The translations under genes were made by a program, and so were the position numbers. From positions 1,674,201 through 1,738,200 of the forward strand of contig OZ026600.1 in the NCBI GenBank assembly GCA_964020085.1: a DNA stretch of 64,000 nucleotides, read 5' to 3'. Positions 20,805 through 28,943 of this stretch are shown here, piece after piece; position 1 is the first letter of the stretch; each line of letters opens with the position of its first letter. Below the pieces are notes generated by a model. That model worked only from the letters and a program-made list of their open reading frames with translations, did no database searches and was not told the DNA's origin. This DNA comes from Micromussa lordhowensis. Taxonomy: Eukaryota; Cnidaria; Anthozoa; Scleractinia; Lobophylliidae.

Positions 20805-21159
20805 AGTAGTGTAGGAAACGAGATCATCGGCGCACCTACGCATAACCACACTAAGATGCGTAAAAATCTGAGTCTAAAATATATGATATAATACACTAAA
20901 ACAGCGTAGGATATAGTAAAGATCTATATGATATAATACACTAAAACAGCGTAGGATATAGTAAAGATCATCGGCGCGCCTACGCATAACCACACTAAGA
21001 TGCGTAAAAATCTGAGTCTAAAATATATGATATAATACACTAAAACAGCGTAGTTATGCGTAGGTAGCGTAAGTAGCGTAGATATCGTAAAAATGCCTAA
21101 AATGCGTAGGATAGTGTAGGATATAGTAAAATTTAGATTGTTCTCACGATGCGTAATTT
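20805..21159. repeat. Terminal tandem and inverted repeats of viral element
   Basis: A unit of about 90 bases starting GATCATCGGCGC(A/G)CCTACGC occurs twice (from 20,822 and from about 20,966), with a partial copy between. CCTACGCATAAC near 20,836 is complemented by GTTATGCGTAGG near 21,053. GCGTAG words recur throughout. It may be the remains of a viral terminal repeat. An 85-codon frame across it (20,924-21,181, minus) repeats VLVYYII and is not a gene. Confidence 0.6.
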
Positions 21160-22161
21160 TCAAGATTTTATAAATTTCCAACCAGCACTCTCACCACCTA
21201 GATGTTCACATATTTTTTTCCAAATTTTATCATGTTCATAGAGTTTTAAACGATCTTTATACAATTTTAGCTTTGGTAAAAATTCATTATATCCGAGTAT
21301 TTGGCAAAATTTATAGATGATATATGAATAGGAAAAGAAATTGCTTCTATTTTTACCTTTAAAAATTTCAAATGGCTCTTGAATTTGTAAAAACCTCATT
21401 TTCATTTTTTCTTCCATTATAGGAGTCATTTGTAATGGAGGTATTTTTGTTATTCGATACAAAATTTGTGTGGCATGATTATAATAACGTAATTTACGAT
21501 GTTTTTTAAGATATCTTTTAATATCTGCTTCTTTTAACTTTTCCAAAGAATTTTCCATCCTTTCATGAACGATTTCTCTGATAATAGTATTAATAACCTC
21601 TTCTGGCACTTTAACACTTTCTTTGCCTTGGATATTGGCTAAACAATCACAAAAATGAGTATATCTTTTGTAATCATTTTCTGCAGGTTTTATAGATGGT
21701 TTTTCTGGATTTATTGAGACACTTATTCCGCAACTTAGACAAGTACTTATTGCTTCATCGATGTTAAATACTTTAAATTTTTCACATGCATAACAATAGT
21801 TCTCTTCATTTATATTATTTTCACTGTAAGGGAGTTCTTCAGGAAAGATATTATATTTATACCTTTTATAATAAGAATTATCAACACCATAAACAAAATT
21901 TTCGTTTATATTTTTTGCTCTATTTTCTGTATGTAAAAAAAGTAAAATAGCATTCTTTAATAAATAACTAGTACGAAGATTTTTGATATCATTTATTTCA
22001 TTTTCTAACCTTATTTGTTCAATTTGATCAATTCTAGAATAATCTTTTTTGATGGATAAATTTACAATTTTTTTTTTTAAATCTGGTATTTTTTTTTCTT
22101 TCCGAACAATTTCTGAAAGTTTTTTACGATGTAGATTGCCAATAGTTTCTTTATTCATCAT
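21160..22161 (-). CDS. VLTF3-like viral late transcription factor
   Basis: 333 residues. The N-terminal third is a Lys/Glu-rich coiled-coil-like segment. A zinc ribbon follows at about residues 125-150, with CYACE and CLSCG (two CxxC pairs). Then comes DYKRYTHFCDCLANIQGKES at about 165-184. The C-terminus holds FFSYSYIIYKFCQILGYNEF and ends KIWKKICEHLGG...WKFI. This order matches the poxvirus VLTF-3 (A2-type) family found across nucleocytoplasmic large DNA viruses. There it is a late transcription factor. It is the last gene of the leftward cluster, 22 bases after the small acidic gene. The first of two tandem Met codons is chosen. No disruption is visible. Confidence 0.72.
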   Translation of the reverse strand: MMNKETIGNLHRKKLSEIVRKEKKIPDLKKKIVNLSIKKDYSRIDQIEQIRLENEINDIKNLRTSYLLKNAILLFLHTENRAKNINENFVYGVDNSYYKRYKYNIFPEELPYSENNINEENYCYACEKFKVFNIDEAISTCLSCGISVSINPEKPSIKPAENDYKRYTHFCDCLANIQGKESVKVPEEVINTIIREIVHERMENSLEKLKEADIKRYLKKHRKLRYYNHATQILYRITKIPPLQMTPIMEEKMKMRFLQIQEPFEIFKGKNRSNFFSYSYIIYKFCQILGYNEFLPKLKLYKDRLKLYEHDKIWKKICEHLGGESAGWKFIKS

Positions 22162-22183
22162 AATAATTAATGTACTTTATTCT

Positions 22184-22324
22184 TTAAAGTACAGTAGAGA
22201 GATCTATCTCTTCATCACTGCTCGTCGATTCCTCATCTGAATTAGTATCATAATCACTATCGCTACTATCAGTATCATGGAGTGGGTCTTCAGACAAGAA
22301 TTTTTTAAAATTCGGAATTGGCAT
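22184..22324 (-). CDS. Small acidic protein (46 aa) of the viral element
   Basis: The ATG is 5 bases after the PolB stop and the TAA is 22 bases before the VLTF3-like start, filling the only gap between them. The product starts MPIPNFKKFLSEDPLHD and continues as a Ser/Asp/Glu run (SSDSDYDTNSDEESTSSDEE). I do not recognise a family. The strong acidic bias resembles activation or charge-mimic tails of viral regulators, which is inference. The tight packing and clean frame argue that it is real. Confidence 0.55.
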   Translation of the reverse strand: MPIPNFKKFLSEDPLHDTDSSDSDYDTNSDEESTSSDEEIDLSTVL

Positions 22325-22329
22325 ATATA

Positions 22330-28511: not shown

Positions 28512-28537
28512 ATTAATTAATATTATAATTAATATAT

Positions 28538-28628
28538 GTTAACAAAGTTAACTATTGTAAAGTAAAGTTCCTTTACAAAAGTTCCTTTACTATTGTTAAC
28601 AAAGTTAACTATTGTAAAGTTCCTTTAC
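28538..28628. promoter_or_regulatory. Duplicated palindromic motif between the DUF5679 genes
   Basis: A unit starting GTTAACAAAGTTAACTATTG and ending in GTAAAG-TTC-CTTTAC occurs at 28538-28576 and 28595-28628. Each holds two GTTAAC palindromes and a perfect GTAAAG/CTTTAC hairpin. It lies between the upstream DUF5679 stop and the PLA2-gene start. It could be an mRNA 3'-end hairpin, a promoter element or an origin-like site. Confidence 0.45.
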
Positions 28629-28864
28629 TATAATATAGCTCCTATGAGTGGAATTCCCTTAAATGGACTGTTTTTACCCAGTAATAGCCCTTTTCCTTTT
28701 CTACCTCTCCCAGTCATACCGGACTTAACAAATTTAGTTTTTGTTATCCCGCATTCTGCGCATTTACATCGCATCATGGTACGACCATTTCTTGTCTGTA
28801 CAACACTTTCTGAACCAGGAACGCACTCTGTCTGTTTACGTTGTTTGACACAATAGCTTTTCAT
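28628..28864 (-). CDS. DUF5679-like small zinc protein, 78 aa
   Basis: It starts MKSYCVKQRKQTECV and has NGRTMMRCKCAECGITKTKF, the same CxxC zinc module as the N-terminus of the adjacent PLA2 gene. A Gly/Lys/Arg-rich tail and a hydrophobic end (KGIPLIGAIL) follow. The two look like tandem paralogues of which only one gained, or kept, the PLA2 domain. Similar small basic proteins in adenovirus-like elements have been likened to core proteins; that is inference here. Start follows TATATAG directly. Confidence 0.72.
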   Translation of the reverse strand: MKSYCVKQRKQTECVPGSESVVQTRNGRTMMRCKCAECGITKTKFVKSGMTGRGRKGKGLLLGKNSPFKGIPLIGAIL

Positions 28865-28904
28865 CTATATAATAATTTTTATTATTTTTTTATATATTAT
28901 TATA
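28865..28904. promoter_or_regulatory. AT-only divergent promoter of viral element
   Basis: Forty bases, almost all A/T, separate the leftward DUF5679 start (28864) from a rightward ATG (28905). The leftward side has TATATAG immediately before ATG. The same TATAG-ATG arrangement precedes the zinc-finger gene (26781) and polB (26535). Confidence 0.5.
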
Positions 28905-28943
28905 ATGGAAGAAATTGAAATTGACAATGAAATACGTAGGATA
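28905..28943 (+). pseudogene. Rightward viral gene cut after 13 codons
   Basis: ATG opens a frame reading MEEIEIDNEIRRI, which ends exactly where direct repeat copy B begins at 28,944. Beyond that the frame runs through host sequence to a stop near 29,009. It is too short to identify. Its position, divergent from the replication genes, suggests the lost part held a second gene cluster. Confidence 0.5.

Follow-up and report, generated by a model that had tools for sequence, protein, structure and literature searches.

The stretch of DNA analysed here at its full length of 64,000 nt (the window) covers positions 1,674,201 to 1,738,200 of OZ026600.1, contig C6 of the 580.8-Mb genome assembly of the scleractinian Micromussa lordhowensis. 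By ORF reading and a Pfam scan, seven leftward open reading frames (ORFs), including those for a family B DNA polymerase (PolB) and an rve integrase, were found at 20805–28943 (Table 1). The block is an element of the polinton/adintovirus type. An earlier note on this DNA, made from its letters alone, had described it as integrated and Polinton/adintovirus-like, and the gene set, sibling copies in the same genome and the left terminus bear this out. The seven leftward genes of that note were recovered, its block edges proved near-exact, and its VLTF3-like, rve-plus-chromodomain and phospholipase A2-like (PLA2) calls agree with Pfam matches. GC content, taken in 1-kb steps, is 27–35% for 21001–29000 vs. 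31.5–46% in the rest of the window. Absent from the earlier note is a further feature: the block lies exactly between two copies (U1 and U2) of a 2.8-kb host unit that carries a G protein-coupled receptor (GPCR) gene. The GPCR genes mark the host as an animal.

Table 1. Features of the element and of the host unit on either side (window positions; strand given where applicable).
Feature	Position	Strand	Evidence or remark
Host unit U1, first copy	17989..20804	+	Intact 310-aa rhodopsin-type GPCR ORF at 18489–19421; 7tm_1, E = 8.4e-23
Left terminal region of element	20805..21159		Terminus AGTAGTGTAG, then 45- and 89-bp tandem/direct repeats
VLTF3-like late transcription factor, 333 aa	21160..22161	-	Pox_VLTF3, E = 3.4e-41
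Short acidic ORF, ~46 aa	22184..22324	-	Open frame; no Pfam match
Family B DNA polymerase (PolB), 1401 aa, unbroken, with endonuclease-VII-like stretch	22330..26535	-	Endonuclease_7, E = 2.5e-5
Zinc-finger-like ORF, 77 aa	26548..26781	-	Open frame; also in siblings L023 and L028
rve integrase with chromodomain, 332-aa open frame	26812..27810	-	rve, E = 4.1e-9; chromo, E = 2e-7
DUF5679 and phospholipase A2-like (PLA2) protein, 250 aa	27759..28511	-	PF08398 (Phospholip_A2_4), E = 7e-11; PF18930, E = 2.9e-6
DUF5679 protein, 78 aa	28628..28864	-	PF18930, E = 1.4e-6
Small rightward ORF, first codons only, cut at the right edge	28905..28943	+	Siblings L023, L024 and L028 read on differently
Right junction of element and host	28935..28943		CGTAGAAT common to siblings and host at the left edge of U1
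Host unit U2, second copy	28944..31750	+	GPCR ORF frameshifted at residue 282

Edges of the element and its host flanks

Homology to close siblings starts at window position 20805, and the terminus found there stands at the same edge in five other elements (L005/L024, L006/L025, L008, L009 and L013) and is also present in a sixth (L026). The left edge of the block is the family's own terminus. Polinton termini typically start with AG. On the right, the alignment to L023, L024, L027 and L028 stops at 28943, where the siblings carry on an ORF that the window breaks off. Aligning the ends of relatives was a check proposed in the earlier note: the left terminus is held in common, and the right breakpoint at 28943 recurs in none of the five siblings opened there. 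Of a pair of terminal inverted repeats, only the left one was found, in a comparison that covered the siblings short of their far end. To the right of U2 (31741–34500) and elsewhere in the window, the search for another terminal repeat, or for what might be left of one, returned only short, chance-level matches; on this ground the host sequence right of U2 (R) was rejected as a decayed element end.

At the right junction, the siblings read ACGTAGAATAG and the host at the left edge of U1 reads CCGTAGAATTGCGGGG. The 8-bp microhomology CGTAGAAT is present in both parents, and the window crosses from sibling to host sequence with small changes. Among 200,000 random pairings of L024 with host positions, a run of 8 or more in the same stretch had a frequency of 2.15e-4.

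U1 and U2 share 95% identity: of 2804 bases aligned, 117 (4.2%) are mismatched, at a rate of 2.8% within the GPCR ORF and of 4.9% in the remainder. The element starts at the exact end of U1, and U2 runs past the same point into other host sequence; U2 therefore keeps an uninterrupted insertion site, and this site at U2/R is the only one visible for the insertion point. Chance insertion into a pre-existing U1/U2 junction was rejected, as both edges would need to coincide. Among the 40 of 397 genomic candidates scored, there was no third full-length copy of the unit, the other long matches being GPCR-sized and at most 86% identical. Several of these matches belong to a cluster of related GPCR loci 0.5 Mb away, at C6:2190000–2225000.

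Capsid-coding siblings in the same genome

PolB DNA was scored at at least 36 places in the genome, the window included, a lower bound that comes from 85 match rows with 36 of 687 first candidates scored. The longer relatives that the earlier note had suggested looking for in the same genome do exist: the two siblings followed furthest span >15.7 and >16.1 kb, with the far end still beyond. Past the DUF5679 gene, three close siblings code for a protease, a pair of unnamed proteins, a capsid protein, another two proteins and one further. Two of the three (C6:5.98M and C2:45.47M) additionally carry an ATPase together with a fibre-like protein on the opposite strand, and the stretch taken for the third (C2:11.8M) stopped short of this region. 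Some of the capsid-side frames are broken, e.g. the capsid frame of C6:5.98M. A long fibre-like protein of a sibling, L029:2-1445, matches the phage T7 tail-fibre domain in its N-terminal part (PF03906, 8.4e-11), and L027:1-1084 looks like its counterpart.

Eight proteins of C2:45.47M were scanned, four of them without a telling match. The ATPase matched Pox_A32 (E = 6.7e-14), and two matches fell below the cut-off, i.e. Peptidase_C5 for the protease (E = 0.0067) and, weakly, DJR-like_dom for the capsid protein (4e-4). A structure model of this capsid protein, of modest confidence (mean pLDDT 62.5, pTM 0.65), was used for a fold search, which recovered the major capsid proteins of iridovirus, chlorovirus, virophage and mavirus with TM-scores of ~0.5 (best E = 8.4e-13 among viral models and 3.8e-12 in the PDB). 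As modelled, the sibling capsid protein matches the double-jelly-roll (DJR) type.

A survey of 1.2-kb stretches at the expected capsid position in 22 further siblings detected capsid-gene sequence in 19, three of which had it in two pieces. Since 22 of the 25 siblings tested (ten of the 35 siblings being outside this test) keep a capsid gene at the expected distance, the window block does not represent a capsid-free kind of element. The three siblings with no capsid gene at this position were opened: C7:11.97M and C15:7.12M keep the protease and part of the next gene, and C7:36.74M has an inverted second piece of an element at the capsid position. On these three, a truncation that the window block would share with other capsid-lacking copies was rejected.

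When nine capsid-side proteins of the siblings were searched against the whole window, none matched at E ≤ 1 save one at E = 0.83, which adjoins a simple repeat; a packaging ATPase and a cysteine protease were likewise not found there. The statement of the earlier note that morphogenesis genes are missing from the block was therefore correct. Its description of a replication module without capsid genes needs to be divided: the capsid half is indeed absent here, but as the product of a deletion and not as the mark of an element type.

The polymerase, its age and the neighbouring genes

For the long open PolB frame, the earlier note had offered recent arrival or constraint as reasons; recency held up, constraint did not. 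Among 19 siblings compared, the four nearest gave PolB dN/dS values of 1.02 (L007), 1.37 (L015), 0.87 (L004) and 0.81 (L005), and the 14 most distant 0.27–0.53. In four of the 19, the frame of the window's PolB is interrupted by a stop, and all 19 differ from the window by at least one indel event. The comparison with five close siblings took in the 6479 sites at which a letter is present in four or all five of them and these letters agree; here 30 changes are private to the window (0.46%). PolB contains 26 of these, 5 silent and 21 replacement, for a neutral expectation of 19.8% silent, 74.5% replacement and 5.7% stop (~5:21); so few silent changes would be found with P = 0.003 at a dN/dS of 0.3 and P = 0.02 at 0.4. 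Since 26 neutral changes would all miss creating a stop with a probability of 0.22, the open frame needs no selection. The truncation is best read as recent, and the block looks like a decaying relic, not a working capsid-free element.

If identical at insertion, U1 and U2 would be expected to differ at ~26 positions, at ~36 with the PolB-only rate (0.63%) and at ~66 with the whole distance to L015 placed on the window, vs. 117 differences seen. Because their divergence of 4.2% exceeds the apparent age of the insertion (0.46% private divergence), the two units were probably already different when they came to flank the element.

Homologues of PolB were plentiful (7953 of 7988 scored). In the window protein itself, endonuclease VII in the middle is the only Pfam match above the cut-off, and no DNA-polymerase model of Pfam matched up to E = 10. 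Two of five homologues scanned (P0070 and P0087, 56–57% identical) match DNA_pol_B_2 at 2e-18 and 1.2e-18, respectively; the remaining three gave endonuclease VII matches, below the cut-off in two cases, and none to a polymerase model. An alignment of 22 sequences, that of the window among them, shows no variation in the columns that we take for the motifs of exonuclease and polymerase; these labels and the term 'polinton type' for PolB are our assumption. In the N-terminal half, D381, C384 and H483 are invariant in the alignment and presumably fit the pattern of a vOTU protease. No terminal-protein domain was identified in PolB from the sequence, no fold having been made. The search of PolB against phage records gave no match. 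In PHROGs, PolB found endonuclease VII and one family of unknown function, the integrase found transposases and one unknown family, and the sibling ATPase found terminase/ATPase-type families among others; PLA2, VLTF3 and the sibling capsid protein had no PHROGs matches.

The DNA of the zinc-finger start of PolB (26393–26445) is 72% alike to that of the neighbouring zinc-finger ORF (26627–26679), for which the Pfam scan gave no match above the cut-off; this likeness suggests an internal duplication. DUF5679 is present twice, side by side. The VLTF3-like protein has 102 homologues among 1333 candidates, and VLTF3 is the only giant-virus hallmark match of Pfam in the block; with the siblings being compact elements that have capsid genes of their own, a fragment of a member of the Nucleocytoviricota was rejected.

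In the integrase frame, the first ATG occurs only at 27645, and the 5′ part overlaps the PLA2 ORF in another frame. What we take to be the first catalytic motif was found in 13 elements (the window and loci L004–L014 and L016). In 12 of them, no ATG precedes this motif and the integrase frame is not that of the PLA2 ORF; in the more distant copy L016 the two share one frame. As a feature common to copies, this start perhaps reflects frameshifting or a non-ATG start and not damage to the window copy. The PLA2 protein may itself be a virion component, since in a distant relative (L002, see below) its gene comes after a gene that by eye codes for a capsid protein.

Elsewhere in the window, a leftward 369-aa ORF at 37952–39061 looks by eye like another GPCR. 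A ~306-bp repeat occurs in three copies (36805–37111, 37118–37420 and 42031–42336; 96–97% identical to the third), two of which adjoin in opposite orientation, and is probably a small transposon. At 48213–48345, a GC-rich unit of 52 bp is repeated in tandem (2.6 copies with 97% matches).

Probable origin of the truncated copy and its relation to known systems

The block is probably a truncated copy of a resident, capsid-coding Polinton/adintovirus family, with its capsid half lost at a join to host DNA. On the reading that asks for the fewest events, a copy of this family would have gone into the host genome left end first, at the U/R edge beside the GPCR gene, and the starting state would have been either an insertion-bearing chromosome or a linear element attached by one end only. 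Right end and capsid half would then have been lost, or would never have entered, when the broken interior of the element was joined through the 8 bp of microhomology to host DNA that lies 2.8 kb upstream. The receiving DNA would have been a diverged second copy of the host segment, i.e. the empty homologous chromosome or an older tandem unit, to yield the order host U1, truncated element, host U2. Lacking a right terminus, the product would no longer move or replicate as a linear unit, and its PolB frame would be open for want of time to break, which the substitution pattern supports.

Several observations weigh against this account. The join rests on a single assembly; in the window itself, one base of the microhomology is changed and a few bases are unlike both parents; and with the right end gone, no target-site duplication is readable. 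On the side of the polymerase, the fifth nearest sibling (L006) gave a dN/dS of 0.62, the neutrality call rests on 26 changes, and an omega of 0.5 is still compatible with them (P = 0.07). Private changes are moreover clustered, as PolB accounts for 4106 of the 6479 sites and 26 of the 30 changes (0.63% vs. 0.17%, P = 0.005). A mosaic PolB may be the cause; part of the gene may come from a lineage outside the five siblings, and 'private' need not mean 'since insertion'.

Truncation by a join to host DNA is also compatible with a different order of events, to which we give slightly less than an even chance. In this variant, an older tandem duplication of the GPCR unit came first, followed by a full-length insertion into the first unit and then by a deletion reaching from the element into the second unit. 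The divergence of U1 and U2 beyond the insertion's apparent age fits this order, as does the related GPCR cluster nearby, from which the family appears to duplicate locally. However, three events are required, no third full-length unit was present among the 40 candidates scored, and no remains of the lost flanks lie between the units in the window.

An assembly misjoin is unlikely, though it would yield the same layout of U1, element and U2: a contig of the inserted haplotype that ends within the element would have been joined to a contig of the empty haplotype at U2, and the true locus would hold a full-length element. The 4.2% divergence could then be allelic, and the element is a repeat, with copies 97–98% identical in PolB, of the kind in which assemblies tend to break. 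Yet the window contains no N, the edge falls on a microhomology that an assembler would not need, and the bases at the join are slightly altered, as in end joining. That the host has kept the polymerase or another gene of the block for its own use is very improbable: it would fit the long unbroken frame, but not the private changes in PolB, which stand at the neutral ratio of silent to replacement and have an appreciable chance of being stop-free. Least credible of all is a capsid-less, plasmid-like replication unit spreading without virions, which has in its favour the retained replication genes and a polymerase frame open for 1401 codons, but which is opposed by the single terminus with only chance-level matches right of U2, by an edge common to none of the five siblings opened and by PolB changes that look neutral.

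For the truncation itself, a germline hybrid of integrase action and repair is offered as a tentative route, with the balance of probability against it. In it, the left end would have been attached at the element's own terminus; the broken inner end would have invaded the homologous chromosome that lacked the insertion, 2.8 kb upstream and by way of the 8-bp microhomology, and replication would have made the chromosome whole again. If it were true, a viral fragment would have come to lie between diverged alleles, with a receptor gene duplicated in passing. More broadly, a single genome here shows how a capsid-less 'replication module' can come about by rearrangement from a capsid-coding endogenous virus, and the case cautions against taking a long open polymerase frame for constraint. 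The join links virus insertion with duplication of a neighbouring receptor gene and, with dozens of copies available from a single assembly, a statistical survey could be made of how virus DNA is joined in an animal germline.

With Polintons/Mavericks and adintoviruses (Preplasmiviricota), the block has PolB, the rve integrase and an AG-starting terminus in common, to which the siblings add a DJR-type capsid protein, a C5-type protease and an A32-type ATPase. In contrast to these systems, the window copy is without the nine capsid-side proteins tested and one terminus, and the family also has VLTF3, DUF5679 and PLA2 genes. Scanning viral contigs with PolB and VLTF3 as single proteins gave no relatives; a PolB alignment search gave two, IMGVR_UViG_3300028392_002905 (L001) and IMGVR_UViG_3300007522_001028 (L002). 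They share the PolB family (40% and 36% identity, respectively, in the best segment), and Pfam matches were to rve and Pox_A32 in L001 and to PLA2 in L002; unlike the window block, they are separate, distant contigs of 17.4 and 15.1 kb, with capsid genes that were read by eye and had no Pfam match.

Adintovirus-like insertions in Amoebidium are described as carrying VLTF3 beside an adintovirus-like PolB and capsid genes, together with a Dam methyltransferase (PMC11244446). They resemble the present family in VLTF3, in a PolB nearest to adintoviruses and in complete and truncated copies within one genome, but differ in their non-animal host (an animal relative) and in complete copies of ~30 kb (PMC11244446). 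A polinton/adintovirus of the coral Stylophora is, as here, a cnidarian-genome polinton with a multi-domain PolB, and is described with a separate terminal-protein gene (PMC11071308). The same source traces cytoplasmic linear plasmids to (proto)polintons that lost their morphogenetic module (PMC11071308); the window block has one terminus, and its edge was found in no independent copy among the five siblings opened. Cnidarian capsid genes are listed among the exceptions to a main cluster of polintons (PMC10120064).

A literature search for a truncated Maverick with tandem duplication, or for a Z-pattern with host duplication, turned up no such locus by title or start of abstract, which is no proof of absence. 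In Acropora, tandem gene duplication by non-allelic recombination, including break-induced replication, has been proposed, with Maverick among the elements enriched in such regions of one species (PMC12314368). A structural likeness exists to the Z-pattern of Merkel cell polyomavirus: there, duplicated host DNA encloses the viral DNA, which is partial in one case, the junctions show microhomologies, and microhomology-mediated break-induced replication is given as the explanation (PMC7470373). Viral DNA between host copies, with microhomology at a junction, is also what the window contains. The Z-pattern differs in being somatic, in tumours and of another virus type, and the host duplications named for it measure 17 to 167 kb (PMC7470373) vs. 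2.8 kb here, where the copies are 4.2% diverged. Host copies identical at origin, as expected of a Z-pattern, do not agree with 4.2% between the units vs. 0.46% private divergence of the element. Use of the homologous chromosome as template could explain this divergence of U1 and U2 under a Z-pattern, and the hybrid integration, if real, would be an inherited counterpart of the Z-pattern of tumours.

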